Below, in pieces: positions 354-29,665 of a stretch of 49,981 bases of DNA. The notes below the pieces were generated by a model that saw only the letters and a list, made by a program, of their open reading frames with translations, ran no database searches and was not told where the DNA came from. The DNA is taken from positions 1 through 49,981 of the forward strand of contig JAMCZK010000015.1 in NCBI GenBank assembly GCA_023485685.1, written 5' to 3'. Numbering within the stretch: the first letter of the stretch is position 1; each line of letters starts with the position of its first letter. The DNA comes from Chloroflexota bacterium (GTDB lineage Bacteria; Chloroflexota; Anaerolineae; Anaerolineales; UBA11579). Position numbers and translations under genes: made by a program.

Positions 354-382
354 TTGACTGTTACTATGATTATCCGTACAAT
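354..382 (+). promoter_or_regulatory. Promoter of the sugar kinase/nucleoside transporter operon
   Basis: TTGACT (354-359) and TACAAT (377-382) are separated by 17 bases, close to the sigma-70 consensus. Transcription would start near 389, about 30 bases before the kinase start. A perfect 8-base palindrome, TGATATCA, at 401-408 lies in the predicted 5' untranslated region and is a possible site for the GntR-family regulator encoded in the operon. That link is inferred. Confidence 0.6.
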
Positions 383-418: not shown

Positions 419-1342
419 ATGAAAATTGATTTCTTCACTATAGGTTGTCTAAGCCTGGACAATATTGTTCTTGAAGACGGTCGATACCTCCAAAGTGTAA
501 TGGGTGGTAATGCTCTATATTCTGCCATCGGCTGCAAGCTTTGGAATGTGAATGTCGGTATGGTTAGTTATATAGGCAGAGAAGACTATCCCAGAGAAAA
601 ACTTGACGAGCTATCTTCTGCTGGCATCGATATTTCAGGTATACACGTAGTTGACAATCCAAGCGAGAAATTTTGGATATTGTATGAAAAAACTGGCCGA
701 CAAACTCTCCCTACTCTGGATTATGTTGGCCAAGAAAAAATGACCCCTGATGGCAAGGATATACCTGAAACTTATCTGAATGCACAAGTCGCGCATATTA
801 GTGCAAGACCTTATCAAAATCAACAGGCTCTAAAGAACTTTCTAAATCGTCGTAAAATCTCGGTATCTCTTGACACTGGGGAGATGCATGGATTAGGAAT
901 CGAAGGTTATAGAGAAAAGGGTGCGTTAAACGGCATTTCCTATTTTTTTCCAAGTTCCAACGAGGTTAAAGCAATATTCGGCGATAGCGATGAAGCCGCA
1001 ATTAGACAGCTGTGCACCGAAGCAGGGGTGACCATCTTAGTGATCAAAAAGGGAGCCGAAGGGTCGTTGGTTTGTGATCTTAAATTGCAAAGAGCTTGGC
1101 AAGTCCCTGCTTATCGTGTGAATGTTGTTGATCCGACTGGCGCAGGAGATGCTTTCTGCGGTGGCTTTATCGTTGGCTATAAGTTAGACAATGACCCCCG
1201 TTTGGCAGCCGCATATGGAACTGTGTCGGCGTCTTTTGTCGTGGAGACTGTGGGCATAAAGGCATTAAAGGCGAAACGTAAAGAAGTGGACAACCGTTTG
1301 ACACAAATCCTTCGAGAAATTAGAGAGGTATCTTGTGCTTGA
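419..1342 (+). CDS. PfkB/ribokinase-family carbohydrate kinase
   Basis: This 307-residue cytoplasmic kinase transfers a phosphate from ATP to a sugar or sugar-like alcohol. Both family signatures are visible: the N-terminal glycine-rich GGN element (residues 29-31, substrate side) and the C-terminal DPTGAGDAF (238-246), whose GAGD holds the anion hole and the catalytic Asp244. The FFPSSNEVKAIFG segment (176-188) is the usual N-x-x-E region of the family. The substrate cannot be named; ribokinase, fructoselysine kinase (FrlD) and nucleoside kinases share this fold. It is the first gene of the operon, and its end overlaps the SIS gene by 8 bases. The ribosome-binding site is weak and the coding sequence is AT-rich. 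Confidence 0.9.
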   Translation: MKIDFFTIGCLSLDNIVLEDGRYLQSVMGGNALYSAIGCKLWNVNVGMVSYIGREDYPREKLDELSSAGIDISGIHVVDNPSEKFWILYEKTGRQTLPTLDYVGQEKMTPDGKDIPETYLNAQVAHISARPYQNQQALKNFLNRRKISVSLDTGEMHGLGIEGYREKGALNGISYFFPSSNEVKAIFGDSDEAAIRQLCTEAGVTILVIKKGAEGSLVCDLKLQRAWQVPAYRVNVVDPTGAGDAFCGGFIVGYKLDNDPRLAAAYGTVSASFVVETVGIKALKAKRKEVDNRLTQILREIREVSCA

Positions 1343-2471
1343 GAAATCAAAGTTAACGAATGCAGTTATGGAAAATATGTGGATGGAAATCATCCATCAA
1401 GGAGAATACACACTCCAGAATTTAGATGCGATAAAGCAGCAAATTTATAAGGTTTTTTCGGATTTTAACGAAGTTGAAAATGTGTATTTAGTGGGAAGTG
1501 GCGATTCTTATTATGCTGGTATTGCTGTTCAATCTGCATTTTCGAAATGGACAGGAATTGAAGTTCACCCGGTGACTGCTTTTGAGTTTCAGGGATACCT
1601 GTCTGATTTCTTGCCGGCGAATTCCCTTGTTATCACCATATCGATAACCGGGGAAAGTGTCGCCACAGTTACTTCAGCGCGAGTCGCCAAAGGTGAAGAT
1701 TCCCAAGTTCTTGCGCTAACTTGTAATCCTAAGAGTGCACTTGCTAGAGAGGCCAGTAATACCATCGATATGTTATTGCGGCCTTCTGAGCCAGGACCAA
1801 CACCCGGAACAAGTACTTACATTGCGAGTTTAACAACCCTTTACCTCATCGCGCTAGAGCTTGGCAAGAGACTCGGTAAGTTACAGGAGAATGAGTATCA
1901 AAAGAATTATGAAACGATTATAGCGATCCTTGGTGAAATTAGACACCAAGCCTTGGTAATTTCACCCGTTATATTGAATTACGTATTAGATAAAGTTAAT
2001 TCCGGAGATGAAATTCACTTTACCGGATCAGGGCCCAACTATGCCACAGCCCTTATCGGCTCTGCAAAACTACTGGAAACTGCAATTCACCCTTCAATAC
2101 CCCAATATACTGATGAATGGGCACATGAACAGCTGTATCTAGTAAACCCGAAAACGCATGTATTTTTTATCCAAGAGCCAGGTCCGAGTCTTAGCCGAGT
2201 TGAGGAACTTATTCGAACAGCAGTTTCATTCGGTGCAAAAGTAGTGGTATTAAGACGGGACGATCAGGACCACTTGGATTTAGGGGGTGTCAATTATTGG
2301 AGAATAGCCATTAATACCGGCGAGCTTTTTTCTCCGATTGCTTATGCTTTTGCACTTTGTTTATTTGCATATCATCTCGGTAAAAAATTGGGAAAACGGC
2401 CTTTTGGGTTTGACGATAGTAACCGTGAAAATATCGCAAAAACTGCAATTTATTGTTATAGGAGGAAATGA
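1335..2471 (+). CDS. Double SIS-domain sugar isomerase/deaminase/deglycase
   Basis: This 378-residue protein carries two sugar-isomerase (SIS) domains at about 45-180 and 215-350. The phosphosugar-binding motifs GSGDSYYAG (54-62) and SITGES (103-108) are clear, and TGSGPNYAT marks the second domain. It matches in size the isomerase half of GlmS and AgaS/FrlB-type enzymes but lacks the glutaminase domain, so it is not a glucosamine-6-phosphate synthase. The likely role is isomerisation, deamination or deglycation of a phosphorylated sugar made by the preceding PfkB kinase. Translation starts at GTG inside the kinase gene behind AGAGGT, suggesting coupling. The end shares ATGA with the BtpA gene. 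The exact reaction is unknown. Confidence 0.85.
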   Translation: MLEKSKLTNAVMENMWMEIIHQGEYTLQNLDAIKQQIYKVFSDFNEVENVYLVGSGDSYYAGIAVQSAFSKWTGIEVHPVTAFEFQGYLSDFLPANSLVITISITGESVATVTSARVAKGEDSQVLALTCNPKSALAREASNTIDMLLRPSEPGPTPGTSTYIASLTTLYLIALELGKRLGKLQENEYQKNYETIIAILGEIRHQALVISPVILNYVLDKVNSGDEIHFTGSGPNYATALIGSAKLLETAIHPSIPQYTDEWAHEQLYLVNPKTHVFFIQEPGPSLSRVEELIRTAVSFGAKVVVLRRDDQDHLDLGGVNYWRIAINTGELFSPIAYAFALCLFAYHLGKKLGKRPFGFDDSNRENIAKTAIYCYRRK

Positions 2472-3301
2472 ACTTGAAGCTTGACACTGTATTTAGATCA
2501 AAGAAACCAGTTATTGCGATGGTACAAACGGCAGCCTTTCCAAGAAGCAGTCGCTCTAAAGGCTTGACGATGGATCAAGTGATCGAATCAGCGGTAAATG
2601 ATGCGTTTCTGCTTAAAAAAGCCGGTGTTGATGGCCTATTGTTACAAGATCTAGGTCAACTTCCAAGACGTGACACAGCCGAGTTAGTGGACGTTGCGCG
2701 GTTTTCTATCGTATGCAGCGCGGTAAAGCATGAAGTCAGCCTGCCGATAGGAATCAACTGTGTCTGGAACGCATGGAAAGAAACACTAGCGATTGCCACT
2801 GCCGTTGAAGCACAGTATGTTCGCTTTAAAACCTATGTTGGTGCGTCCTTAACTCCTTTTGGTCTAGTCAACGGTTGTGCAGCGGATGTCGCACAATATA
2901 TAAGTTCTACATGTTTGGTGAAACCACTGATTTTCGCTGATATCCAAGATCGTAATGCGACACCCATTGCGCAACAAACAGTGGAAAGAGAAGCCTACCA
3001 GGCAATGAAAATGGCAAATGCCGATGCTGTCTTAATTGAAGGAAGGAGCCCGTCAGAAACGATAATAAAAATTAACGATATCAAAAAGGTTCTTCCTGAA
3101 GCAATTGTTTTCGTTGGCGGGGGTGTGAATTTCGATACGGTGGATGATCTTATCCAATCTGCTGACGGAATTATTGTTAAGTCATGTTTGACAGAGGATG
3201 GAAATATTGAGTCTCCACCTAACCTTGATATTGCATCTGCGTTCATGAAGAAGGTTGAGCAAGTGAGGAAAAATGAAATCTCAACAAGATCAGGACTCTA
3301 A
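2468..3301 (+). CDS. BtpA/SgcQ family TIM-barrel protein
   Basis: The 277-residue protein matches the BtpA/SgcQ family: an N-terminal KPVIAMVQ strand, AGVDGLLLQD, the central PIGINCVWN segment, a YVRFKTYVGA stretch and a glycine-rich VFVGGGVN phosphate-binding-like loop near the end, as in (beta/alpha)8 barrels. BtpA was named for a role in photosystem I accumulation, and SgcQ is encoded in a cryptic sugar operon of E. coli; the chemistry of the family is not settled. Here it lies between sugar-phosphate enzymes, so an aldolase-, epimerase- or glycosidic-bond-cleaving role is plausible but inferred. The start overlaps the SIS stop by 4 bases, and AGGAGG just upstream serves as ribosome-binding site. 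Confidence 0.85.
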   Translation: MNLKLDTVFRSKKPVIAMVQTAAFPRSSRSKGLTMDQVIESAVNDAFLLKKAGVDGLLLQDLGQLPRRDTAELVDVARFSIVCSAVKHEVSLPIGINCVWNAWKETLAIATAVEAQYVRFKTYVGASLTPFGLVNGCAADVAQYISSTCLVKPLIFADIQDRNATPIAQQTVEREAYQAMKMANADAVLIEGRSPSETIIKINDIKKVLPEAIVFVGGGVNFDTVDDLIQSADGIIVKSCLTEDGNIESPPNLDIASAFMKKVEQVRKNEISTRSGL

Positions 3302-4028
3302 TGCTTTTGCCGTTGAAGCCAAATCGCTTAGCCATCAAGTTGCAAAACGTTTGGAAGAAATTATTGAAACGTTAAAACCAGATGACAAGCTTCCTTCGGA
3401 GCTTGAATTGCAAAAGATGTTTATGGTAAGCCGTACAACTGTGCGCGATGCGTTGAGTCAACTGCAACGTGCTGGTGTTATACGAAAGGTTCATGGCATT
3501 GGAACCTTTGTCGCGAAAAGGAATTTGGTAATTAGTGGTGGGTTAGATGAGCTCGCCAGCGCAACCGAGATGATCAAACAAGCGGGTTATCTTCCGGGGA
3601 CATCTTATGCGTCTATTGGGATTGTAGAAGTTCCGAATGAAATAATCGAAGCCCTTGGTGTTAGTTCATACGCCGATATTCGATGCATAAGAAGGATAAG
3701 AACTGCAAATGAAGTTCCCGTGATGGCTTGCGAAGATTATTTCAAGGAAGAGGACCTGAGTCTCCTTGATTGGAATGATATTTATCATTTGTCCTTAACA
3801 AGCTACGTAGAAAAAACGTTAGGCAAGCGCCTTGCATATGCAGACGCATTCTTTTCAGGAAACCGATATAAACCTGAACTTCTTTCCTTGCTTGAATGGG
3901 AGAAAAACGTTCCTCATACCTCTTTCATACAGCTACATTATGACCAAAACAACAATTGTGTTTTTTGCTCAGACGTTCTGGTGCGGACCGATATTATCGG
4001 ATTGAGAATCCGCCGTACTCGAAAATAA
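3273..4028 (+). CDS. GntR/HutC-family transcriptional regulator with UTRA domain
   Basis: The protein is 251 residues long. An N-terminal GntR winged helix (about 17-85) shows the typical LPSELELQKMF, SRTTVRDAL and a GIGTFVAK-like end. A UTRA effector-binding domain follows (about 95-245). Regulators of this HutC type usually repress the sugar operon they sit in and respond to a phosphorylated sugar or related ligand. The start, after TGAGGAAAA, overlaps the end of the BtpA gene by 29 bases, so it is co-transcribed and probably autoregulatory. Candidate operators are the palindrome at 401-408 or sequences around the promoter at 354-382. Confidence 0.9.
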   Translation: MKSQQDQDSNAFAVEAKSLSHQVAKRLEEIIETLKPDDKLPSELELQKMFMVSRTTVRDALSQLQRAGVIRKVHGIGTFVAKRNLVISGGLDELASATEMIKQAGYLPGTSYASIGIVEVPNEIIEALGVSSYADIRCIRRIRTANEVPVMACEDYFKEEDLSLLDWNDIYHLSLTSYVEKTLGKRLAYADAFFSGNRYKPELLSLLEWEKNVPHTSFIQLHYDQNNNCVFCSDVLVRTDIIGLRIRRTRK

Positions 4029-4128
4029 ATTCGTAGACTTTTTGCTAAAGGAGGTGAATTAGGAAAGTATTTTGCTAAAAATTATTGACATAACCCCGAA
4101 TCCATTTGAATCGCAAAGGAGAAATCTC

Positions 4129-5196
4129 ATGTGTAAGCGAAATACCGAACGATTAATTTCGTTTTTGGGCACAATAGTAATACTGTCGTTGATTGCTGGC
4201 TGTGCTGCACCAGCCGTGTCAGCTACAACCCCTCCAGATGCGGTCTCGCAGAGTGAGGTTCAGCAAGATGTTTTGGATGTAGCTCTCGTTCTGCCTCTGA
4301 GACTTGGCGATAAATCGTACCTGGATGCATCGAATGAAGGCGCAATGCGAGCCAGAGATGAACTCGGTGCAAATATCACTGTGGTGGAAAATAGAGATCC
4401 AAGTGATTTTGAACCGGCGCTACGCAGTATGGCCGAAGCCCAAAAAGATATTACTATCGCTGTCTTCTTTACCATGATCGACGCGCTAAAAGTTGTTGCG
4501 ACGGAGTACCCAGACCTAAAATTTGCGATCATTGACGGCGAGCTAGATCTACCAAATGTCGCATCTGTAGTGTTCAAAGAGCATGAGGGCTCATTCCTCG
4601 TTGGTGTAGTTGCAGGCATGATGACAGAGACCGACATTGTGGGTTTCGTTGGTGGAATGGATATCCCCCTCATTCGTAGATTCGGAGTCGGCTTTGAAGA
4701 GGGTGTGAAATACGTAAACCCAGACGCGACTGTTCTATGGGGTTTTGTTGGAGCTTGGGACGATCCTGCAAAGGGCAAAGAACTTGCTGTCACACAGTTT
4801 GATCAAGGTGCAGACATCATTTATGCAGCTGCGAGCAAGAGTGGCCTTGGAACGATTGAGGCCGCAAAAGAGAAAGGAAAGTTTGCAATTGGTGTGGACT
4901 CGAATCAGGATTGGATTGAGCCTGGCGTAGTAATCACAAGTATGCTCAAGCGAGTTGACAACGCAGTTTTTGATCAGGTCATGCGCGTGCAAGAAGGCAC
5001 CTTTACACCCGGCTTAAATGTATATGGTGTCTCGAATGACGGTGTAGGCGTCACTGATTTTTCGGAATTTCGGAAGAATGGTCCGCCTGATCAGGTTGCT
5101 AAACTTGATGCAGTGATTGCTAAAGTCGAAGAAGTAAGGAGAATGATCCTCGACGGAACGATAAAGGTGACGGATTATATGGAGCAAGCACAATAG
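4129..5196 (+). CDS. BMP-family nucleoside-binding lipoprotein (ABC importer)
   Basis: This 355-residue extracytoplasmic solute-binding protein belongs to the BMP/PnrA-like family that delivers nucleosides to ABC importers. The start at 4129 follows AAGGAG at good spacing and gives a clean lipoprotein signal (positive N-terminus, hydrophobic run, LIAGC lipobox with Cys25). The longer TTG-start form from 4072 would bury this signal, so it was not chosen. Body motifs typical of the family include DKSYLDASNEGA, VFKEHEGSFLVG (a segment of the ligand pocket), GFVGGMD and FEEGVKY. It is followed by a long hairpin and then the ATPase and permeases, giving a complete importer. Confidence 0.92.
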   Translation: MCKRNTERLISFLGTIVILSLIAGCAAPAVSATTPPDAVSQSEVQQDVLDVALVLPLRLGDKSYLDASNEGAMRARDELGANITVVENRDPSDFEPALRSMAEAQKDITIAVFFTMIDALKVVATEYPDLKFAIIDGELDLPNVASVVFKEHEGSFLVGVVAGMMTETDIVGFVGGMDIPLIRRFGVGFEEGVKYVNPDATVLWGFVGAWDDPAKGKELAVTQFDQGADIIYAAASKSGLGTIEAAKEKGKFAIGVDSNQDWIEPGVVITSMLKRVDNAVFDQVMRVQEGTFTPGLNVYGVSNDGVGVTDFSEFRKNGPPDQVAKLDAVIAKVEEVRRMILDGTIKVTDYMEQAQ

Positions 5197-5228
5197 CCAT
5201 ACCTTTATCCCCCGACTACTAGGGTTTG

Positions 5229-5287
5229 GTTCACTCGCCGGATTCAGCACACCAAGTACAAGTTTTTCTGCTGAGTTCGGCGAGAAC
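5229..5287 (+). other. Long intercistronic hairpin between binding protein and ATPase
   Basis: An imperfect inverted repeat pairs 5229-5249 with 5269-5287, sharing TCGCCG and TCAGCA blocks with only a short bulge and two mismatches. It lies in the 194-base gap between the lipoprotein and ATPase genes. No T-tract follows, so a terminator is unlikely. Such hairpins often protect the abundant binding-protein message or limit downstream expression. The gap contains no other feature I can support. Confidence 0.55.
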
Positions 5288-5390
5288 TAAACATTGATGG
5301 GAACCCAAAGTAATCGCGTTATGGAATAAATGGTAGGTCTAGGTTGTTAGAAGATCGATTATCAAATTTCTAAATTTATGGAATAGAAAA

Positions 5391-6905
5391 ATGCATAATC
5401 TTGCCGTTTCAATGACAGACATTTGTAAGTCTTATGGGAAATTCAAAGCGAACGACCATGTTTCTCTGCACGTCAGGCCAGGAACGATCCATTGCTTAGT
5501 TGGCGAGAATGGTGCCGGGAAAACTACTTTGATGAATATCCTTTATGGGCTTATCCAAAAGGATTATGGCGAAATCAAAATATTTGGTCAACCTGCGAAT
5601 GTTAAAAATCCAATCGACGCAAATGGCTACGGGATTAGTATGGTTCATCAACACTTCAAGCTTGTCCCATCTTTCACGGTACTTGAAAACGTCATCCTCG
5701 GCACGTCCAAAACACGTGGACCGCTTCTGGATAAACAAACGCTTGAACCGGAGATATTGCAATTATGTAACCAGTTTGGCCTTGAAATTGATCTACAAAA
5801 AGTAACAGAAGATATACCAGTAGGATCGCAACAGAGAGTCGAAATATTAAAAGCATTGTATCGAGGAACAGAAATTCTTATTCTTGACGAACCCACAGCG
5901 GTACTAACACCTCAAGAGTCGGAACAGCTTTTCATTACTTTAGAAGCCCTTGCTCAAAGCGGTACAGCTATTATTTTTATCACTCATAAATTGAGGGAGG
6001 TTTTTAGGATATCTTCAGAAATTACTGTTATGAGAGGTGGCAGAACAGTTGGAACTGTATTTACCAAAGATGTTACTGATAACCATATTGTCCGAATGAT
6101 GATAGGAAAAAGTATTTCACTTAGTTTTGATAAAAAAGGGTTCACAGAACGAAAAGTTGTCCTAAGTTTACAAAAAATCAACCTTGCCAGCTCCCGAAGT
6201 AAGCCCATTCTAGAGAATGTTTCCTTTGAGATAGCTGAAGGTGAAATTCTAGGAATTGCGGGTATAGAAGGAAATGGCCAATCCGAACTGGTAGAAGTAA
6301 TTTCTGGAGCACAGAAAGCTACCTCTGGAAAAACAATTTTAGATGGCGACGACGTCTCTCATTTTAATGTTAGAGAACGGCGCAACATTGGCGTCGTACA
6401 CATTCCTGAAGATAGAAATAAAACTGGAGTAAATATATCTGCTAGCCTTTTAGAGAATATGATTGCTAACAATTATTTCATGCCAGATATATCATCTTAC
6501 GGCTTTATATCCGAATCTAAAGCATCTTCATATACGGTTCAAATCTGCAATACATATAACGTGAAATCGGCTAGTGTGTTAGCTCCGATTTCTAGTCTTT
6601 CAGGAGGTAATATCCAGAAGGCTATTGTAGGTCGCGAGTTAAGTATGCCGCGAAGACTCCTCCTTGCGAGTCAACCTACTCGTGGAGTTGATATTGGTTC
6701 CATCGAATACATTTACTCTAAATTAATCGAATACCGAAATAACGGTCTTGCCACATTACTTGTTTCATCTGATTTGGCAGAAATATTAACCATGAGCGAT
6801 AGAATCGCTGTAATTTATGAGGGAAAGATTGTTTCAATCCTTAATGCTCATGAGACCAACGAGATTGAATTGGGTTTCTTAATGACCGGATCAAAGGAAA
6901 ATTGA
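5391..6905 (+). CDS. Nucleoside ABC importer, double ATP-binding protein
   Basis: The 504-residue protein carries two tandem ABC domains, as in the nucleoside/sugar transporters YufO/NupO and RbsA. In domain 1 (about 5-240) the Walker A GENGAGKTT and Walker B LILDEPTAVL are intact, while the signature is altered to VGSQQR. In domain 2 (about 255-500) the Walker A is degenerate (GIEGNGQSE) but the signature LSGGNIQK is intact and the Walker B region reads LLLASQPTRGVD. This asymmetry is normal for this subfamily: only one composite site is expected to be catalytic. The ribosome-binding site is weak. It energises the permeases directly downstream. Confidence 0.92.
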   Translation: MHNLAVSMTDICKSYGKFKANDHVSLHVRPGTIHCLVGENGAGKTTLMNILYGLIQKDYGEIKIFGQPANVKNPIDANGYGISMVHQHFKLVPSFTVLENVILGTSKTRGPLLDKQTLEPEILQLCNQFGLEIDLQKVTEDIPVGSQQRVEILKALYRGTEILILDEPTAVLTPQESEQLFITLEALAQSGTAIIFITHKLREVFRISSEITVMRGGRTVGTVFTKDVTDNHIVRMMIGKSISLSFDKKGFTERKVVLSLQKINLASSRSKPILENVSFEIAEGEILGIAGIEGNGQSELVEVISGAQKATSGKTILDGDDVSHFNVRERRNIGVVHIPEDRNKTGVNISASLLENMIANNYFMPDISSYGFISESKASSYTVQICNTYNVKSASVLAPISSLSGGNIQKAIVGRELSMPRRLLLASQPTRGVDIGSIEYIYSKLIEYRNNGLATLLVSSDLAEILTMSDRIAVIYEGKIVSILNAHETNEIELGFLMTGSKEN

Positions 6906-6912
6906 CATCAGC

Positions 6913-7977
6913 ATGAATAACGGATTGAGGTTGTTGATATCTAGTCTTATACCCTCAGTGATGGCGGCGGCAGGAGCATTTCTTATTGCTCTATTGTTTG
7001 TAGTTTTTGTTCGACAGGATCCCAGTGTTGCATTTACCGCCCTGTTAAATGGCGGATTTGTTGGTACTCAAAATATTGCCAACACTTTGATGAAAGCTAC
7101 ACCATTAATTTTGACTGGATTAGCATTCACTATCGCATCTCGAGCTGGCGTTTTTAATGTAGGAGCGGAGGGTCAGCTATACTTAGGTGCATTCTTTTCA
7201 ACAATTACTGCCTTATCTTTCTCTGAGCTACCGGGCCTTGCCCTGATACCGATTAGTATTTTGGTCGGGGCGTTTGTAGGGGCAATTTGGGCCGTTTTTC
7301 CCACTTATTTAAAGTTGCGATTTAATGTTAACGAAATCATTTCAACCATAATGCTGAACTATGTGGCCATTCTTTTTACATCGTATCTGGTGAACCATCC
7401 TTTCAAAGCGAAAGATGCACAATTTCCAGCAACGGAAATGATCCCGGATCAAGCTTTTCTTCTAAGGCTACTTCCACCTTCTCGATTGAATATGGGTTTT
7501 TTGATCGCAATTGCTCTAGTTATTTTATTGTGGCTCTTACTTTTCAAGACAATATGGGGCTACGATTTTCGGCATGTCGGTCAAGCCCCTTACTTTTCGA
7601 GCTATATAGGAATATCTTTGCCGAAGACCATGCTATCTGCGATGGCACTAAGTGGCGCAATTGCAGGTATTGCTGGAGCAATTGAAGTATTGGGTGTTCA
7701 CCATCGATTCTTAGACAATTTTTCACCTGGCTTCGGTTTCACAGGAATTATTGTTTCCCTTCTGGGAAAAGCGAACCCTATCGGCGATCTTGTGGGAGGA
7801 ATCTTTTTGGGCGGACTGACTCAGGGTGCCTTAATGATGGAACTCAATGCCTCAATTGGCAGGGAACTTGTTGATGTCATAAAAGCCGTTCTCTTTATAT
7901 CACTTGCAGCAGTTGAGGCCTACAAGCCTATTATCCACCTTTTCTCTGACCGGAAAGTAAAAGCCCAAGATGCCTGA
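6913..7977 (+). CDS. Nucleoside ABC importer permease 1 (NupP/YufP type)
   Basis: This 354-residue polytopic inner-membrane protein belongs to the branched-chain-amino-acid-type permease superfamily (BPD_transp_2). Hydrophobic helices run from the N-terminus, with the family motifs ASRAGVFNVGAEGQLYLGA (the conserved NVGAEGQ) and NEIISTIMLNYVA. Together with the next gene it forms the heterodimeric channel. It starts 7 bases after the ATPase stop and overlaps the second permease by 8 bases, consistent with stoichiometric translation. Confidence 0.9.
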   Translation: MNNGLRLLISSLIPSVMAAAGAFLIALLFVVFVRQDPSVAFTALLNGGFVGTQNIANTLMKATPLILTGLAFTIASRAGVFNVGAEGQLYLGAFFSTITALSFSELPGLALIPISILVGAFVGAIWAVFPTYLKLRFNVNEIISTIMLNYVAILFTSYLVNHPFKAKDAQFPATEMIPDQAFLLRLLPPSRLNMGFLIAIALVILLWLLLFKTIWGYDFRHVGQAPYFSSYIGISLPKTMLSAMALSGAIAGIAGAIEVLGVHHRFLDNFSPGFGFTGIIVSLLGKANPIGDLVGGIFLGGLTQGALMMELNASIGRELVDVIKAVLFISLAAVEAYKPIIHLFSDRKVKAQDA

Positions 7978-8875
7978 AATAATAAATTTATCCATCATTG
8001 GTGTTGCTATTCGGATGGCAACACCTCTTTTACTAAGCTCGCTGGGTGGTGTGGTTGCCTACCGCGCAGGAATTTTGAATGTTGGCATGGAAGGCATGAT
8101 GCTTGCAGGTGCATTTTCGGCGGTTGTTTTTAGTATGACCTTTGGCAGCTCCACAATCGGCTTAATCGCGGCTGGTTTAATAGGTTTATTGGCTGCCATG
8201 CTAACAGGTCTTATATACAACCGTTATAAAGGTGATGTGTTCGTAATCGGAATGGCAATTAATATCGGCGCGTTAGGTTTAACAAATTTCTTGATGCGGT
8301 CCATTTTTGGTACAGTAGGGGCAATAAGTGGATCTGACATCATAGGATTTCCAAAGATAGAAATTAACGCTATTAAAGAATTTCCAGTTCTTCGAGATGT
8401 ATTTACAGGGAACCCGATTTTGGTATATGCATCATGGGGACTGGTATTAATCACTTTTGTCTTTTTAAACCATACTAGAGTAGGCCTAAATCTTCGCGCT
8501 GTAGGCGAGAATCCAGAAGCAGCCGCTGCAGCCGGCCTAAATAATAGTTGGTATAGATATCTGGGTATTGCCTTAAGTGGAATTTCCAGTGGGTTTGCAG
8601 GTGCATATTTAGCCCTAGGGCAACTTTCAATGTTTACTGAGAACATGACTGCTGGTCGTGGTTTTATCGCCCTTGCAATTATTATCTTTGGCCGAGGAAC
8701 CGCAGAAGGCGCATTATTAGGTTCATTGCTTTTCGGCTTTGCAGAAGCTGTTGCAATGCAGCTTCAAGGAGCCAGTACTGTACCACCACAATTCGTCTTG
8801 ATGATTCCATATGTACTCACAGTCGTGGCATTGACTATCTTTGGAGTAGGGCGTTCTCGCCGACTAAGTACATAA
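7970..8875 (+). CDS. Nucleoside ABC importer permease 2 (NupQ/YufQ type)
   Basis: This 301-residue polytopic membrane protein has the conserved YRAGILNVGMEGMMLAGA segment of the second nucleoside permease and an LRAVGENPEAAAAAGL cytoplasmic coupling loop that contacts the ATPase. It is shorter than permease 1, as is usual for the pair. It is the last gene of the operon. Its start lies inside the end of the first permease gene. An imperfect hairpin about 130 bases downstream (9003-9072) may mark the 3' end of the transcript. Confidence 0.9.
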   Translation: MPEIINLSIIGVAIRMATPLLLSSLGGVVAYRAGILNVGMEGMMLAGAFSAVVFSMTFGSSTIGLIAAGLIGLLAAMLTGLIYNRYKGDVFVIGMAINIGALGLTNFLMRSIFGTVGAISGSDIIGFPKIEINAIKEFPVLRDVFTGNPILVYASWGLVLITFVFLNHTRVGLNLRAVGENPEAAAAAGLNNSWYRYLGIALSGISSGFAGAYLALGQLSMFTENMTAGRGFIALAIIIFGRGTAEGALLGSLLFGFAEAVAMQLQGASTVPPQFVLMIPYVLTVVALTIFGVGRSRRLST

Positions 8876-9002
8876 ATTTCTCCCTTAACGCTTAAATCTC
8901 TTCCTACAGAAATATCGCCATAATTATTGCCTACACACCTGAACATGCAGCTACCTATTTCGGATCAGAGGCATCAAACCAACCACAATAAGAGAGTTCT
9001 TG

Positions 9003-9072
9003 CCACCTGCTCACCACTGTTCGGAAATGCACCGAACCGCCAGGTAAACCTGGTTCAGTGCCTCGCAGGTGG
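9003..9072 (+). repeat. Imperfect hairpin/inverted repeat after the transporter operon
   Basis: The outer arms CCACCTGC (9003-9010) and GCAGGTGG (9065-9072) enclose an inner hairpin built on CCAGG-TAAA-CCTGG with flanking GCAC/GTGC. No run of T follows, so it is not a clear terminator; a folded 3' end or a mobile palindromic repeat are alternatives. The rest of 8876-9090 shows nothing I can identify. Confidence 0.4.
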
Positions 9073-9090
9073 TTATGGGGAAGCTAGCTT

Positions 9091-9303
9091 CTAGTCATCT
9101 GAACTAACCCTGAGGGCTTGCCCATATCTCGTTGCAACTACATCAACCCCACCGTACCTTCTACCATCCAAAAGGATTACTTCAGTAGGATTCGTGAGTG
9201 CGATACAACAGTATTTCCCTCGATCCTTTTCAATGTTCACAGAAAGCAAGCGTTTCTTGTTTTTTTCTTGCCAGATCCGCAACGCTGAAAAAAGATTCTT
9301 CAT
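9091..9303 (-). CDS. Small hypothetical protein
   Basis: This is a 70-residue open frame starting at the ATG at 9303-9301, preceded by AAGAGAA and a TATATT element that could be a -10 box. It looks protein-like: an amphipathic N-terminal helix, KYCCIALTNPTEVILLDGRRYGGVDVV in the middle and an LRVSSDD end. No family was recognised. It may be a remnant of a longer gene. A longer start at 9387 would run into the palindromic repeats and is not preferred. It is isolated, with no operon partner. Confidence 0.35.
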   Translation of the reverse strand: MKNLFSALRIWQEKNKKRLLSVNIEKDRGKYCCIALTNPTEVILLDGRRYGGVDVVATRYGQALRVSSDD

Positions 9304-9692
9304 TGAGTTCTCTTCAAAATATACGAGATTGTGCTTATTATGCTGTGCCTTACCAATAAAGGGCGGCTTGAAAGCTGCCCCTACCACGGCGCATCTTGCG
9401 CAGGGGCGAGGTCTCCTCGTGCTTATATCCCGATTGGCATGACTACTCGCGGAACGGGAAACATAAGGTTCCCACGGAGACCGTGGGAACCAGCAATCGA
9501 ACTGGTAGCAGCGGGGCGAGCGGGCGGATTGTCAAAAAGGTGGAAGGGTCTGTGCCACGCTCCCTAAATGTTCTTAACCCTTCTTGCCTTGTTGAATCTA
9601 AAGGTCCCTTCAAAAAAATCCAATGGCGAGGTGGGGATGTGTCTCTCAGACCTTATAATCTACAAACCAATAAGCTTTGAAAGGAGTTGAAG
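9304..9692. repeat. Gene-free stretch with a cluster of palindromic repeats
   Basis: Several hairpins crowd together: GGGCGGCTT with a near-complementary AGCTGCCCC (about 9360-9380), GCGAGG-TCT-CCTCGT (about 9404-9420), and a perfect 11-base stem GGTTCCCACGG/CCGTGGGAACC (9467-9477 and 9481-9491). Dense intergenic palindromes like these are typical of dispersed REP- or MITE-like elements. Open frames crossing them are repetitive in residue content and are not credible genes. A TATAAT at 9654-9659 may be the -10 box for the small membrane protein gene at 9693. Confidence 0.5.
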
Positions 9693-9909
9693 ATGAGTAA
9701 TCGAATTCCAGTCTTCGATAGCTTGGGAATCCGTGTTGGGGATTTTATCCCGGCGGACAGCGGATGCGGGTATTTTTTTAATGTTTCTCATTGGATTGCC
9801 ATTTATCATCCCGCTCGCCATAGCGGGCATCCTGGGTATCCTGGCAGGAATTCTAATCATTCCGGTGCTTATACTTTTTGCCATCATTCAAAGTATTTTG
9901 GGTATGTAG
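9693..9909 (+). pseudogene. Small membrane protein split by a +1 frameshift at T7
   Basis: The start ATG at 9693 follows AAGGAG at ideal spacing and encodes MSNRIPVFDSLGIRVGDF and a little beyond. The frame then meets a run of seven T residues (9773-9779). Skipping one base there joins it to a 42-residue, almost wholly hydrophobic stretch (from ATG 9781 to the stop at 9907-9909) with two isoleucine/leucine-rich membrane segments. In the unshifted frame the product becomes histidine-rich and not protein-like. Either this is a homopolymer error or mutation that broke a gene of about 70 codons, or the distal part is translated alone or by frameshifting. Confidence 0.45.
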
Positions 9910-10097
9910 CCGAGTGGCCACTGTCAACGTGTAAATTCGCCGCATATAGTTTTTTACACAGCGACAAGCTGTTTCCCCTTTTCCGCGCATGCCTGGGCCA
10001 CGCCTGAGGCCGGGCAGCAGGCCGCTAGAAGCTAATAGATTATCAATCGCAAATATCTATTGACAGGTTGATTACTATATGACGTGTTGTATCCATT

Positions 10098-10129
10098 GCA
10101 TTGCAATGCGCCCTCAACAAAAAAGGGCG
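10098..10129. repeat. Palindrome and short hairpin downstream of a hypothetical gene
   Basis: A perfect 12-base palindrome GCATTGCAATGC (10098-10109) abuts a hairpin with arms CGCCCT (10109-10114) and AGGGCG (10124-10129). It lies about 27 bases past the stop of the minus-strand gene at 10156 and could act as its terminator, although no T-run follows on that strand. The remainder of 9910-10155 has no supported feature. Confidence 0.35.
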
Positions 10130-10155
10130 AGGCATCATCTTCCATTTCCGTCTCC

Positions 10156-10566
10156 TTAGAACGCACGCTTCAGCTTTTGAACCTTTTTATTTTCCTTACG
10201 AAGCCGCTTGAAATAAAAGTACTTATTTGGTTTGTAAACCGCTTCATCCCGATAAGTCACAGCAAAACAATCCCAACCTATCGACCCTAGCACATTCAAC
10301 ATTTCTTGTTCGCCAACCTCAACTTTATTTTTCACTTTTCGCATCTCGAGCTGCCATTCTTTGTTACCTAATTCCTGTAATCCCTTGCTATGTTCGAGTA
10401 TCAGATTTTTCCAATAATAGCCAGGCGTCAGGTTGTTTTTAAGCCACTTATCCTGAAAATCTTTACGCAACTCGCTAGGGATGTAGCGATGATATCCAAG
10501 CCGATTCAAGCTATCTTCGCCAAACCAAACGAATTCAAGAACCAGGTATTCGTAATACTCATTCAT
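10156..10566 (-). CDS. Hypothetical protein with DUF4177-like C-terminal segment
   Basis: This is a 136-residue charged, aromatic-rich protein with no signal or membrane segment. The C-terminal part, EQEMLNVLGSIGWDCFAV followed by a YFYFKRL strand, resembles the small DUF4177-type fold (a helix ending in GWE/D plus a strand ending in FFKR). The N-terminal half was not recognised. It lies 18 bases downstream of another hypothetical gene on the same strand and is probably co-transcribed with it. Codon use is AT-rich, unlike the genes from 11456 on. The function is unknown. Confidence 0.6.
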   Translation of the reverse strand: MNEYYEYLVLEFVWFGEDSLNRLGYHRYIPSELRKDFQDKWLKNNLTPGYYWKNLILEHSKGLQELGNKEWQLEMRKVKNKVEVGEQEMLNVLGSIGWDCFAVTYRDEAVYKPNKYFYFKRLRKENKKVQKLKRAF

Positions 10567-10584
10567 TTCTTGGAAATGTAAGGA

Positions 10585-11163
10585 TCACAAATACGGTATC
10601 ATTTCTTTGCTTCCCCCAGATACCTTTAGCGCCTCTTTTAGGGCATTTAACACTATAAGTTCGTGTTTCAAGGCCCGATTAAACTGGTCAGTATAAGATT
10701 TAGATTTGTCCAACTGGTACAACCAATGCCTGAATGGTTGTATTAGAAGCAGCAATAGAGCTAACCCATATGTGAAAACTACCATTACACCCATTATGAT
10801 TATTGCAATGCACCCGTAACCTCGTTTTATTTTAAGGTAACGTCTACGTTCTATTATCAAATCTTTTCCATCTCGTGTAATACTTACCAGGATATGTGAA
10901 AATGATTCGGGTTCTATAAGGGGAAATTTTGCCACAAAGTAGTCCTGATAACTAATTTCCATAACGCTCATTTTGACTTTTTTCTTTATCAGAGCATGTA
11001 CATAGCTGTTTGCAAATTTGTTTATGCGACTGCCCATTTCATCTAGTATGGCTGACTTTGAATTTACAAAATCCCCAAGGTCGTAAGATTGTTGCAATCT
11101 TGGTAATCTGCGGGGACTGGAACGTTCCCCATCTATTTTTTCTTTCCTTGATCGTGCTGGCAT
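10585..11163 (-). CDS. Hypothetical protein with membrane hairpin
   Basis: This is a 192-residue protein of unknown function. A charged N-terminal half (RSRKEKIDGERSSPRRL and a stretch with SYQDYFVAKFPLIEPESF) precedes hydrophobic residues of about 30 amino acids (around 125-155, GCIAIIIMGVMVVFTYGLALLLLL) that could form one or two membrane passes. A helical, lysine-rich tail follows. The start at 11163 was chosen because GGAGG lies 7 bases upstream. A longer ATG at 11196 would lie on top of the -10 box at 11195-11200. Confidence 0.55.
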   Translation of the reverse strand: MPARSRKEKIDGERSSPRRLPRLQQSYDLGDFVNSKSAILDEMGSRINKFANSYVHALIKKKVKMSVMEISYQDYFVAKFPLIEPESFSHILVSITRDGKDLIIERRRYLKIKRGYGCIAIIIMGVMVVFTYGLALLLLLIQPFRHWLYQLDKSKSYTDQFNRALKHELIVLNALKEALKVSGGSKEMIPYL

Positions 11164-11194
11164 AAAAATCCCTCCGGGGGAAGAAAACGCATGC

Positions 11195-11200
11195 ATTATA
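11195..11200 (-). promoter_or_regulatory. -10 element for the hypothetical gene pair
   Basis: TATAAT on the minus strand predicts a transcript start near 11188, about 25 bases before the ATG at 11163. The -35 region is only a T-rich run. A perfect tandem repeat of GTGGTGCAAC lies further upstream at 11249-11268 and could be a regulator site. Confidence 0.45.
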
Positions 11201-11248
11201 CACAGGTTCAGAAAAACAAAAAATGCTAACCGCCTTCCCTATCAAAGT

Positions 11249-11268
11249 GTGGTGCAACGTGGTGCAAC
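11249..11268. repeat. Tandem 10-bp direct repeat
   Basis: GTGGTGCAAC occurs twice in immediate succession. It lies 50-70 bases upstream of the -10 box at 11195-11200. It may be an iterated protein-binding site or a chance duplication. The surrounding gap 11270-11400 has no gene; a decayed tRNA-like T-arm at 11376-11398 is discussed under findings. Confidence 0.4.
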
Positions 11269-11401
11269 CGGGATAGAAATTGAAGATTTTTTAGACGTTT
11301 TGGACATTCTTACCCCAATATATGGATGCTAACCCACTTCCTAGACACCATATACAGGATTGTTACTTTCGCGACCTAGTTCGAATCCAGAATCCCCATC
11401 T

Positions 11402-11443
11402 AAAAAACAAGAACGGCTGGTTGGACCAGCCGTTCTTGTTTTT
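11402..11443. terminator. Bidirectional intrinsic terminator
   Basis: A perfect 14-base stem (CAAGAACGGCTGGT at 11408-11421 with its complement at 11425-11438) has a 3-base loop and is flanked by an A-run on the left and TTTTT on the right. It can stop transcription from both sides. It lies 12 bases past the stop of the alpha/beta hydrolase gene, and it also marks the change from the AT-rich accessory stretch to the GC-richer part. Confidence 0.85.
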
Positions 11444-11455
11444 ATGCTCCTGACT

Positions 11456-12391
11456 TCAGCTCGACACGATGTAGTCCAGCAAGGGGTTGAACTGCCGCAC
11501 AATCTCCTGGAAAGTAACAGGCTTTGGTGGCTGGTGATATCGGTGGGCAAAGCGCTCGATATGCACCTGGCTGAATTGGCGCTGCAAAACCCCCACGGTT
11601 TTCCCGAAATTAACGGTAGGATCGTTCTCAGACATAGCAAGATAACAGGGTTGTTGAAAAGGCGGCACGTGAGTCGGCAGGTCGAAATTTAGCAATTCAT
11701 CTAGTTGAAAAGTTAAAACGTCCGCAGTACTATCAGTAATGTTTTGAAATACCTTCTCTATGGAAATCGTCTTTTCCAGGTTGCTAAATTTAGCCAAAAA
11801 GGCCGCCAAGTATGGGCTGAATTTCTTACTGCGAATCAGGCGCAGCAAACCGGCCCTTACTGAAGGTCGTTTCAGGACGCTTACCACGCGGCGCAGCATT
11901 GCAAGGTGAATTTGGGCAAAATTCAGCGCCTGTTTTGAAAGAACCGGCGCCAGCAGAATCATTCTTTCGATCCGCTCTTGCAACAAATATAGCGTTTCCA
12001 TAGCCAATATGCCGCCGAAGGAAAAGCCCATAAGCGAAATGGTTTTATGCTTCAACTTATCGATGAAAGCCTCAATGGTTTCCGCTACTAGGCTCGTGCA
12101 GAACGGCTCAGGAAACGGTGAAGACTGACCATGACCGGGAAGTTCAAAAAAGTAGACAGTGAATTTCTGCCCCATGAACTGTGCCAACGGTCTCCAGTTT
12201 TCGATCCGGGAAATCGTGGCCGGGACCATCACCATCGGCGGCCCGTCACCGCATTTCATATAGTGCAGCCGCGTCTTAGGCAGGTCAATGTAATGATAGG
12301 AAACCCCGGGTTCAGCAAGAACTCTTTGTGAAAATTGGAGATCAGGCGTTTCTGATTGAGTCGACTGAGTTGCAAGAGCTTTGTATTGCAA
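11456..12391 (-). CDS. Alpha/beta hydrolase
   Basis: The 311-residue cytoplasmic alpha/beta-hydrolase has no visible signal peptide. The oxyanion strand region PPMVMVPAT and the LPGHGQSSPF loop precede the nucleophile elbow GFSFGG (catalytic Ser). Near the end, AMSENDPTV should hold the acid and FAHRYHQPP the catalytic His. The substrate is unknown; esterases, lipases and lactonases share this layout. The start is a TTG preceded by GAGGTGAACA. It is followed by the strong terminator at 11402-11443 and stands alone downstream of the DUF58 gene. Confidence 0.85.
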   Translation of the reverse strand: MQYKALATQSTQSETPDLQFSQRVLAEPGVSYHYIDLPKTRLHYMKCGDGPPMVMVPATISRIENWRPLAQFMGQKFTVYFFELPGHGQSSPFPEPFCTSLVAETIEAFIDKLKHKTISLMGFSFGGILAMETLYLLQERIERMILLAPVLSKQALNFAQIHLAMLRRVVSVLKRPSVRAGLLRLIRSKKFSPYLAAFLAKFSNLEKTISIEKVFQNITDSTADVLTFQLDELLNFDLPTHVPPFQQPCYLAMSENDPTVNFGKTVGVLQRQFSQVHIERFAHRYHQPPKPVTFQEIVRQFNPLLDYIVSS

Positions 12392-12478
12392 TGTTCACCT
12401 CGACGCTTCAGTGGATGGCTTCCGGACTCTGCGCCCGCCAAAATAAGGCACAGTTTACCTCTTTTCTTGACCCCAGAC

Positions 12479-13762
12479 TTATGAAGCCAGCGGCGACTTT
12501 GCTGCCACCCTTAACCCAGTCAGCGCACCGGTCAATGGTTTGCCCTCCTGGATGATCACGTTAGGCACTGCCATGGCGCTCAGCTTCGCCCCCAGTTCCC
12601 TGCTGCCTAACTTGCCGCCAAAGCTGGCTGCATCCAGCAGGATCAACAAAGCCCGTTGCCCCAACCGGCGCAACTGCTCGGCCAGCACGACGATCTTCTC
12701 CTCCACTGAAGGGGTAATCAAGTACACCGTACTCCCTCGCGGCAGATGCCGCGCCTGACCTAAAACCAAATCGATGAAAGGCGTTTGGCCGTCTGCCCGA
12801 AATAGCGCGGTACTTTCAATAATTTTGTTTAATTGCCGGCCGCCGCGTTCGGCGGCCAAAATAGTCAGCTCGGCTCCGGCCGCGGCGTAACCCACGGTGC
12901 GCCCCGCCCGCAGATAATGCTGGGCCAGCGAGGAGGCCAGCGTTGCTGCATACTCCTCGGTGGAAGGGATCAATTTCGCCGGCCCGCCCTTCTGAAAGAT
13001 GACGCTACCGGCATCTGTTTCCAGCTTGTAATCTCTCTTTGCGTGAACATCCCGTTCAGCATCAGCGAAAATCCATACCTCGGCCAAAGGGTCCAGTTCA
13101 AATTCCTTCACGATCAACTTGCCGCGCCGCGCCACGCTTGGCCAGTGGATACGGCTGAGAGGATCGCCGGTCGCGTAATCACGCACGGTGGCCGCGTTGG
13201 GGGTAATCTGGTGAGTCCGTCGCCGGACCGCTTCACCGCCCGGAAGCAACCCGGGCAGATTGGGCACGCCGATTAGTTCGACCCATCGTGGGTAAACAAT
13301 AAGGTATTTTTCTGACGCAATGGTTCGCTTGGTGGAAAAGAGGCCGAACAGATCCCCCGAGCGCAATTCCGTTGGCCCCAGGGCAAATACGCCTCGGGAC
13401 ACTAACCGCGTGCGCGACACAAAGCTGCGCGAACGTCTACCGCCAATGAGCGTGAGTACCCGCGACCCGCGGCCGCCTGGCAAATCCGACATGTCCCGCA
13501 CCTCGATCCAAAATCGGGGCAGCCGACTGCGATTATGGACTTCGAAGATCTCTTCGAATACCTGCCCGACTTCCGAGCGCTCGACGCGCGCATAGCGTCG
13601 CAATTCGACTCCGCCCAATCCGGTACTCGCAAGAATGTAACTGCTGCCGATCAGCAAACCCCACAAGTAAACCAATCGCGCATAGATAACCTGACCACTG
13701 ACGGCCAGCCCGAAGAGACTAAGCCCCAGCAGCACCGGAGTCAGACGAAGGGATTTGCTCAT
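12479..13762 (-). CDS. DUF58 domain protein
   Basis: The protein is 427 residues long. Two N-terminal membrane helices (about 5-50) precede a beta-rich region and the family hallmark RDYATGDPLSRIHWPSVARRGKLIVKEFE (in two overlapping motifs, roughly 190-220), followed by a von Willebrand-like domain. DUF58 proteins pair with MoxR ATPases as a membrane-linked chaperone-like system. Here the moxR gene lies directly upstream. I chose the start at 13762. A longer frame to 13810 reads through a dispersed GC-rich repeat and is unlikely. Confidence 0.85.
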   Translation of the reverse strand: MSKSLRLTPVLLGLSLFGLAVSGQVIYARLVYLWGLLIGSSYILASTGLGGVELRRYARVERSEVGQVFEEIFEVHNRSRLPRFWIEVRDMSDLPGGRGSRVLTLIGGRRSRSFVSRTRLVSRGVFALGPTELRSGDLFGLFSTKRTIASEKYLIVYPRWVELIGVPNLPGLLPGGEAVRRRTHQITPNAATVRDYATGDPLSRIHWPSVARRGKLIVKEFELDPLAEVWIFADAERDVHAKRDYKLETDAGSVIFQKGGPAKLIPSTEEYAATLASSLAQHYLRAGRTVGYAAAGAELTILAAERGGRQLNKIIESTALFRADGQTPFIDLVLGQARHLPRGSTVYLITPSVEEKIVVLAEQLRRLGQRALLILLDAASFGGKLGSRELGAKLSAMAVPNVIIQEGKPLTGALTGLRVAAKSPLAS

Positions 13763-29460: not shown

Positions 29461-29665
29461 AAAGCTCCATTTGTTTTGAAGGGCAGCGCACGGTTCCAAA
29501 GGAGCAGAACACGCAGCAATCACCTTTATTTGGTTTCAACATAATTCCGCAATTCGTGCATCGATAAAAATGCTGGCAAGCATGCATAGGCATCTGCTCT
29601 TCGCGTTGAAATCCGCAATGGGGGCAAGTAATGACGGAAAGCAATTGCACTTCTTGAAGCGTCAC
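29453..29665 (-). CDS. GDCCVxC domain small cysteine-rich protein
   Basis: This is a 70-residue metal-binding-type protein with ten cysteines: CPHC (14-17), C30, CTNC (36-39), CCVFC (50-54) and C61. The [14 protein letters not shown] core is the signature of the GDCCVxC family, whose members may be selenoproteins; here the residues are cysteine. The start is a GTG that shares GTGA with the DoxX stop, and the end overlaps copA by 8 bases, so translation is probably coupled on both sides. The role is unknown; a place in metal or thiol handling is inferred from context. Confidence 0.85.

Follow-up and report, generated by a model that had tools for sequence, protein, structure and literature searches.

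A putative catabolic operon joining a PfkB kinase, a GlmS-type SIS protein and a divergent BtpA barrel to a nucleoside-type importer in a Chloroflexota genome

The operon

The stretch of DNA analyzed here (the window) comprises 49,981 nucleotides of contig JAMCZK010000015.1 (C12) from the 76% complete genome of a Chloroflexota bacterium (assembly GCA_023485685.1, denoted G000); it starts at base 1 of the contig, where the view upstream ends. Near this end, eight genes form a single tight run on the forward strand (419-8875; Table 1), encoding a PfkB-family kinase, a double-SIS protein, a BtpA-family barrel, a GntR/UTRA regulator and a BMP-type importer made up of a lipoprotein, an ATPase and two permeases. 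All eight proteins pass the curated Pfam cut-offs (104 bits for PfkB, 82 for SIS, 157 for BtpA, 67 for UTRA, 59 for GntR, 203 for Bmp, 145 for ABC_tran, and 157 and 124 for BPD_transp_2), and an earlier note, made by a model from the sequence alone, proves correct in describing eight overlapping or closely spaced genes of these families, at the coordinates stated.

Overlaps link the first four genes (1335-1342, 2468-2471 and 3273-3301) and the last two (7970-7977), and the genes of the binding protein and of the ATPase are 194 bases apart (5197-5390). Translation of the binding protein most likely begins at the ATG at 4129 rather than at the TTG at 4072 of the listed open reading frame (ORF), because a ribosome-binding site precedes the former and a lipobox follows it, as read from the sequence. 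The close packing of the genes makes a single promoter likely, as the earlier note had proposed, and a sigma-70-like candidate lies just upstream, but such sites show no excess in the scan (11 found compared with 18.8 expected by shuffles). Terminator-like sites numbered 12, compared with 8.3 expected. Scans of the window with Rfam and for tRNAs and tandem repeats gave no relevant result.

Table 1. Features of the operon and of the region immediately upstream
Feature	Position	Strand	Remarks
Terminator-like stem-loop	130-162	+	Strong; upstream of the operon; 14 pairs, then a T-rich tail
Sigma-70-like promoter candidate	354-382	+	TTGACT-17-TACAAT; pattern match
PfkB-family kinase	419-1342	+	Similar to ribokinases, MJ0406 and ribose-1-phosphate kinases; below each listed equivalog cut-off
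Double-SIS protein	1335-2471	+	GlmS-isomerase-domain type; invariant Lys245, Glu248 and His264
BtpA-family TIM barrel	2468-3301	+	SIS-linked type (Gln60, Gly217-Gly218)
GntR/UTRA transcription regulator	3273-4028	+	Pfam; presumed operon repressor
BMP/PnrA-type substrate-binding lipoprotein	4129-5196	+	Altered base-side pocket (SYLD for SFNQ); listed ORF from TTG 4072
ABC ATPase of the BMP importer	5391-6905	+	Two nucleotide-binding domains
Permease (BPD_transp_2)	6913-7977	+	NupP-like
Permease (BPD_transp_2)	7970-8875	+	NupQ-like

The SIS protein, the kinase and the BtpA barrel

The SIS protein contains two SIS domains, and Lys245, Glu248 and His264 are invariant in all 23 aligned sequences. 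Lysine, glutamate and histidine are catalytic in the isomerase domain of GlmS, and the Glu and His columns of the SIS profile align with those of GFAT. The closest folds to the structure model (pLDDT 92.4) are the GlmS/GFAT isomerase domains and Lmo0035, with no entry described as FrlB among the 50 folds listed. The score against the GlmS model TIGR01135 (114.5 bits) stays below the cut-off of 418 because the glutaminase half is lacking and profile positions 280-592 alone are matched. For the FrlB model NF008481 (cut-off 430 bits), the window protein is not listed at E ≤ 1e-5, and the SIS protein of a related locus (L065) scores 32.5 bits.

The kinase has no equivalog assignment. Its matches over most of the length include MJ0406, which we take to be a nucleoside kinase, and ribose-1-phosphate kinases, but it scores 57.9 bits against the FrlD model NF007321 (cut-off 247), and 67.5 and 65.1 bits against the ribose-1-phosphate kinase models NF053626 and NF041134 (cut-offs 330 and 500). 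On these model scores and the SIS fold ranking, orthology with FrlB and FrlD was rejected; the close parallel with the fructoselysine pathway drawn by the earlier note is not supported by the enzymes, and the structure prediction that it suggested leads to the GlmS/GFAT isomerase domains.

BtpA/SgcQ is a widespread family for which we know of no established reaction. The window protein exceeds the cut-offs of PF03437 (156.7 bits compared with 30) and TIGR00259 (157.7 compared with 153.4) and falls short of NF045918, the model for BtpA of photosystem I biogenesis (131.9 compared with 400). Its structure model is a TIM barrel (pLDDT 89.5), and both profile and model weakly resemble phosphate-binding barrels, namely TrpA, PRAI, GGGPS, KDPGal aldolase, ThiE and RPE; many such barrels come out at similar scores in Foldseek. 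In a midpoint-rooted tree of 45 rows without branch support, with two loci entered twice, the canonical BtpA rows cluster, and the SIS-linked rows, except L094, lie outside that cluster; L024, labeled in the tree as lacking an SIS gene, actually belongs to a BMP-SIS-SIS-PfkB-BtpA run. Gln60 is present in 21 of the 22 SIS-linked rows, compared with Ser or Glu in 20 of the 23 others; Gly218 is likewise present in 21 of 22, where 22 of the 23 others have Thr or Ser; and His20, found in all 23 other rows, is retained in 11 of the 22. The window protein has Gln20 and Gln60 in place of the usual canonical His20 and Ser/Glu60. Judging from these alignments, the SIS-linked proteins appear to constitute a divergent subfamily with altered active-site residues.

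The plasmid BtpA loci examined, from 6 of 160 records, are canonical. In one of them, from Sagittula stellata (NZ_CP155730.1; L028:4069-11418), a canonical-type BtpA pair, a carbohydrate kinase and TenA lie near a ureidoglycine aminohydrolase gene.

Recurrence of the gene grouping

Related loci were gathered in two surveys. The first, which collected BtpA irrespective of SIS in 61 genomes, yielded 24 places distributed over 20 of them (with a wider context for 16 places, and flanks of ~1.5 kb or less for seven others); at seven of the 24, an SIS gene belongs to the same gene run (G000, G011, G048, G039, G016:C1, G018:C50 and G060). The second collected SIS loci irrespective of BtpA: of the 166 pattern-matched stretches, 80 were confirmed, giving 79 loci in named genomes (one locus can carry two names: L033 is L055, and L032 is L048). 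The counts for these 79 loci come from profiles built on few sequences and run in six frames, since longest-ORF gene calls break down in GC-rich loci. PfkB was detected in 64 loci, YjbQ in 21, a BMP receptor in 16, BtpA in 15, an ECF T component in 15 and a TrpF-like barrel in seven, with BtpA or YjbQ in 33. The strand is that of the nearest SIS gene for BtpA in 15 of 15 loci, for YjbQ in 21 of 21, for PfkB in 55 of 64 and for BMP in 15 of 16. BtpA lies within ~1 kb of an SIS gene in 12 of the 15 loci. The exceptions are L094, where the two are 9 kb apart, and L118 and L120, where BtpA is the first gene of the run that includes SIS, at a distance of ~6 kb. The SIS-PfkB neighborhood, which in part includes BtpA, goes beyond chance, because it is found again, on a single strand, in distant genomes. 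PfkB and SIS form the core, BtpA or YjbQ is the partner and the importers change.

The view of the earlier note that these genes are a coherent unit joined to a BMP importer depended on BtpA, kinase and SIS genes occurring with such an importer elsewhere, and they do: a BMP receptor, PfkB, SIS and a BtpA of the SIS type are found together in seven separate loci besides the window (L055, L065, L068, L091, L118, L120 and L125). Of these, L091 has the receptor only, and in L065 a nucleoside hydrolase gene sits between BtpA and the second SIS gene. ECF-type loci with BtpA are L047, L048, L075, L080 and L093; L048 has three phosphorylase genes on the other strand, and L075 has DeoC and two phosphorylases (Pfam confirms DeoC and one phosphorylase; the other assignments come from profiles). 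DeoC is also nearby in L114. Both L075 and the BMP-type locus L120 belong to the assembly of Hungatella hathewayi WAL-18680, a cultured organism. The order SIS-BtpA-PNP characterizes L064, L073 and L074, the latter two near adenosine deaminase and nucleoside hydrolase genes, and a MalEFG-like importer, read from the sequences rather than from a family search, is found in L037 and L038. In Erysipelotrichaceae and relatives, YjbQ occupies the place beside SIS; a TrpF-like barrel then occurs in seven loci, with a nucleoside hydrolase in view in six of these.

Several sister operons have further peculiarities. A tandem SIS-YjbQ-SIS-YjbQ arrangement is present in Erysipelotrichaceae and Clostridia (L089, L090, L094, L095, L096, L098, L099, L101, L102, L103, L112, L118 and L120); seven of them also carry the TrpF-like barrel. 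YjbQ (UPF0047) is named a secondary thiamine-phosphate synthase in NCBIfam. Directly downstream of BMP-PfkB-SIS-BtpA in L055 (11743-20954) are genes for AllG (oxamate carbamoyltransferase), a CoA-ligase, an amidohydrolase, an FAA hydrolase, an M42 peptidase and an alcohol dehydrogenase, which may show what becomes of the base. In L034 (11565-16673), a BtpA and SIS pair adjoins genes for XdhC and xanthine-dehydrogenase-type subunits (XdhC by Pfam, the rest as read), and in L048 (7674-8849) an MtaA/CmuA-like methyltransferase of the URO-D family, below the NCBIfam cut-offs, is inserted between GntR and PfkB.

The importer and its receptor

The receptor scores 203.1 bits against PF02608 (cut-off 24.1). 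Compared with PnrA, Tyr and Trp occupy the two stacking positions, and the receptor also retains an Asp and a Lys, farther along the chain, that presumably face the sugar. The base is contacted by Asp19 and Asn28 in BmpD and by Asp27 in PnrA (PMC7093131). The equivalents of these residues, with the Asn mapped by residue count, are absent from the window receptor. Among the operon-linked receptors, the base-side Asp is missing in 18 of 18, as it is in three L135 receptors not linked to SIS, and the base-side Asn is kept in six of 18, including L033 and L065; the PnrA-type Asp is retained, as is the Lys in all but L068, so that it is the base side that varies.

Another contig of the same genome, C7 (L177:1799-8773), carries an ordinary nucleoside operon, Udp-BMP-permease-permease-ATPase-Ada, in which Udp is uridine phosphorylase and Ada adenosine deaminase. 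Its receptor keeps the SFNQ motif and both the base-contacting Asp and Asn, reads Ser in the second aromatic column of the alignment and is 30.5% identical to the window receptor over 331 positions. With ordinary nucleosides already served by this operon, the window operon would take up something else, which is the best single reason to look beyond them. The nucleoside-like substrate proposed by the earlier note gains from the aromatic pair, the Asp and the Lys of the receptor and from the nucleoside enzymes of the relatives, and loses from the absence of the base-contacting Asp and Asn; it is supported in part. Vitamin B6 import was rejected, given that the models NF047927-NF047930 gave 87, 440.9, 165.6 and 141.5 bits, all below their cut-offs (400-670).

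Nucleoside enzymes near the operons

IU_nuc_hydro was detected in 20 of the 79 SIS loci, PNP_UDP_1 in seven and either in 25, or in 19 of 73 when the six loci that supplied members to these two profiles are dropped. A first control, analyzed with the same small profiles, comprised 18 stretches (290 kb) taken from these genomes and 16 loci of canonical BtpA. The 18 stretches contained no IU_nuc_hydro and one PNP_UDP_1 (one stretch had three BMP genes, and one an ECF T component); the 16 canonical loci contained neither by these insensitive profiles, and one had an SIS gene at its edge. The resulting Fisher values (0.018 and 0.0003) are to be discounted, because the profiles have little sensitivity away from their seed loci: in the window's own genome, the PNP profile recovers one of four Pfam-confirmed places and the IUNH profile gives 47 bits on the hydrolase (threshold there 60). 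The PfkB profile, applied to three annotated PfkB-type kinases, gives 12.8-42.1 bits (threshold 50). Hence the absence counts of the first control are too low, and the profiles favor the seeding loci.

A better control employs genome-wide Pfam counts in 25 genomes, covering 13 of the 15 BtpA loci (L074 and L094 left out). A nucleoside hydrolase or phosphorylase lies near the BtpA-SIS genes in five of the 13 loci (L048, L064, L065, L073 and L075) compared with 0.94 expected (P 0.0007), or in four of 12 compared with 0.86 expected (P 0.004) without L064, a near relative of L073; these neighbors were detected with the small profiles and are, if anything, undercounted. The link of the BtpA-SIS genes to nucleoside enzymes is real but weaker than the first count suggested. 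The genome of the window has four genes for PNP_UDP_1 proteins and a single nucleoside hydrolase gene (IU_nuc_hydro), all on other contigs and one of the phosphorylase genes within an importer operon of its own, and some relatives hold both BtpA and such an enzyme, so the proposal of the earlier note that BtpA replaces any nucleosidase or phosphorylase does not apply in general. Two gut genomes show an apparent expansion of nucleoside hydrolases, with 58 IU_nuc_hydro matches in the genome of L091 (G073, 3.2 Mb) and 34 in that of L123 (G124, 2.5 Mb).

Origin of the operon

The GC content of the operon is 42.5%, compared with 53.5% for positions 10,500-49,981, and the third-position GC is 0.33-0.43 in the eight operon genes, compared with 0.46-0.71 in six genes sampled elsewhere in the window. 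An SIS match at E ≤ 1e-20 was obtained in 15 of the 101 genomes searched, the window's own included; the 10 congeneric genomes, two of which are <75% complete, gave none. Given the composition and the absence from the 10 congeners, lateral gain fits best; a chimeric start of the contig may be an alternative. Past the operon, a low-GC stretch (9000-12500) contains mainly short ORFs without obvious identity, and the foreign segment may extend to about 11-12 kb. A phage origin was rejected, with the BtpA protein matching none of 50,697 phage records (E ≤ 1e-5). Elsewhere in the window, a metal-type P-type ATPase (30175-32457) has the transmembrane motif CPD (ACPDALG), where its neighbor at 27022-29523 has CPC, and a third-position GC of 0.464, below the five other sampled non-operon genes (0.59-0.71).

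A tentative pathway and its alternatives

The preferred reading, held tentatively and at somewhat less than even confidence, is that the operon was gained laterally and serves the catabolism of a non-standard nucleoside-like glycoside, the sugar of which is processed by the kinase, the isomerase and the BtpA barrel. The BMP importer would bring the compound in, and the glycosidic bond would be cut by a nucleoside hydrolase or phosphorylase, such as those that some relatives encode near the operon and this genome encodes elsewhere. The PfkB kinase would phosphorylate a ribosyl-type sugar, either free, as the 1-phosphate or with the base still attached; the GlmS-type SIS protein would catalyze an aldose-ketose isomerization via Lys245, Glu248 and His264; and the SIS-linked BtpA protein would cleave or epimerize the ketose phosphate, passing the product to central metabolism. 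The GntR/UTRA protein may control the operon by sensing the substrate or a phosphorylated intermediate.

Several observations weigh against this reading. No nucleosidase or phosphorylase gene is present in the window operon or in several of its BMP-type sisters (L055, L068, L118, L120 and L125), so that a cleavage-first order is borrowed from other relatives. The BtpA model has no close fold (TM by query length ≤0.60 among the 50 Foldseek matches listed) and no solved homologue was found by sequence, which makes the reaction of this protein a guess. Neither BtpA nor YjbQ is present in 46 of the 79 SIS loci, and some relatives carry two or three SIS genes per operon, which is odd for a simple isomerase. 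Canonical plasmid BtpA genes also lie near sugar kinases (L028, L029, L030 and L031), so the type is marked by the link to SIS and not by the kinase. Many gut genomes are rich in nucleoside hydrolase and phosphorylase genes, and some of the 25 positive loci among the 79 therefore reflect background. Finally, DeoB is over the cut-off in nine of 18 genomes (that of the window and 17 picked from genomes with such loci), so that ordinary ribose-1-phosphate would require no such operon.

Phosphorylation could instead come first, although we consider this rather unlikely. The kinase would act on the intact N-glycoside; BtpA, in a TrpF/HisA-like Amadori rearrangement, would open and rearrange an N-(5-phosphoribosyl)amine to a ketosamine phosphate; and the SIS protein would hydrolyze the latter to a sugar phosphate and a free amine, like FrlB and FraB. 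A nucleosidase would not be needed, and one would expect ring-opened or ureide-like ribosides as natural substrates. This order suits the window operon, which lacks a nucleosidase and pairs PfkB with SIS as Frl and Fra operons do; it is also consistent with the PRAI/TrpF-like barrel that adjoins these kinase and SIS genes in seven of the 79 loci, with the reach of the BtpA profile and model to PRAI, with receptors that keep the Asp and (except L068) the Lys while the base side is variable, and with the ureide-type genes downstream in L055 (AllG, amidohydrolase and CoA-ligase). Against it stand the excess of nucleoside hydrolases and phosphorylases near BtpA-SIS genes, an SIS protein nearer to the GlmS isomerase than to FrlB, a kinase below the FrlD cut-off and the unusual substrate that has to be assumed because ordinary nucleosides are chemically incapable of Amadori rearrangement. 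In a specific version, the imported compounds would be damaged or ring-opened nucleosides (ribosides of the ureide or formamide type), which after phosphorylation would be rearranged to a ketosamine phosphate by a BtpA or TrpF-like barrel and deglycated by SIS, so that the N-glycosidic bond is broken without a nucleosidase. This version is unlikely; if true, it would amount to a new chemistry for the BtpA family and a new class of nutrients in Chloroflexota and Clostridia.

Quite improbable is a route for ordinary nucleosides similar to the pentose bisphosphate pathway, in which a phosphorylase would yield ribose-1-phosphate, PfkB ribose-1,5-bisphosphate and SIS ribulose-1,5-bisphosphate, to be dephosphorylated or cleaved by BtpA or YjbQ. 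The long matches of the kinase to ribose-1-phosphate kinases point this way, but the scores stay below the cut-offs of those models (67.5 of 330 and 65.1 of 500 bits). Phosphorylase genes are found within L048 (on the other strand), L064, L073, L074 and L075, but hydrolases, which yield free ribose, occur in 20 of the 79 loci compared with seven for phosphorylases (the phosphorylase profile being the less sensitive), and the genome already has a separate operon with an importer and a phosphorylase. To our knowledge, none of the known ribose-1,5-bisphosphate isomerases is an SIS protein. DeoB cuts both ways: it was not found in the 76% complete genome of the window and passes the cut-off in just half of the 18 genomes, but its presence in that half weakens a simple bypass of phosphopentomutase. 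A precedent for such a route exists in a halophile pathway (PMC9700705).

An aminosugar pathway, in which an imported amino-sugar nucleoside or glycoside would be phosphorylated, deaminated or isomerized by an AgaS/NagB-II-like SIS protein and cleaved by BtpA as an aldolase, is highly improbable: the relatives of the SIS protein do include the deaminases NagB-II and GlmD and the AgaS family, and PfkB, SIS and a barrel aldolase make up the Aga/Lac tagatose layout, but the scores are far below cut-off for AgaS on the window protein and for NagB-II, GlmD and AgaS on that of L065, and no aminosugar marker gene was detected among the neighbors tested against families.

Implications and comparison with known systems

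The preferred reading, that of a catabolic operon for a nucleoside-like glycoside, would give a family without a known reaction a testable setting: the repeated appearance of one BtpA subfamily in operons with a kinase and an isomerase suggests a phosphorylated substrate that could be made with the operon's own kinase. The operons point to an undescribed nutrient of environmental Chloroflexota and of gut and rumen Clostridia and Erysipelotrichaceae, and caution that not all BMP importers can be annotated as transporters of ordinary nucleosides. Among the titles listed by searches of the open literature, none was recognizable as describing the operon; the name BtpA, which also denotes an unrelated TIR protein of Brucella, swamps such searches.

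In fructoselysine and fructose-asparagine operons (FrlB, FrlD; FraB, FraD), a PfkB kinase stands beside a two-domain SIS protein, with a GntR-type regulator and a dedicated importer, a layout that the window operon shares. It differs from them in an SIS protein closer to the GlmS isomerase and a kinase short of the FrlD cut-off, and in having a BMP importer, a BtpA barrel and, near some relatives, nucleoside enzymes.

Nucleoside-derived ribose also passes through kinase, isomerase and aldolase-type steps in the non-carboxylating pentose bisphosphate pathway of haloarchaea (PMC9700705). The window operon differs in lacking a separate RuBP phosphatase or FucA-type gene and in a kinase that stays under the ribose-1-phosphate kinase equivalog cut-offs. 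The haloarchaeal isomerase, as far as we know, belongs to another family. An SIS isomerase together with a phosphate-binding barrel enzyme is likewise typical of Aga/Lac, which also has PfkB, and of HxlA/HxlB; unlike the window operon, these systems have other barrel families, other importers and no nucleoside link.

The importer resembles PnrA, BmpD and NupOPQ in having all four components and in keeping the aromatic pair (Tyr and Trp), the Asp and the Lys, and departs from PnrA and BmpD in missing the equivalents of PnrA Asp27 and BmpD Asn28, both of which are present in the copy elsewhere in the genome. With canonical BtpA/SgcQ proteins, the window barrel shares PF03437 and TIGR00259 membership, the phosphate-binding barrel type and nearby sugar kinases; it differs in that the SIS-linked rows, except L094, fall outside the canonical cluster, carry Gln60 and Gly-Gly at 217-218, and have lost His20 in half of the cases. 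All the families involved are known; what appears to be new is their combination in a catabolic operon of kinase, isomerase and barrel, in which the BtpA protein is divergent and which is linked to nucleoside-type importers.

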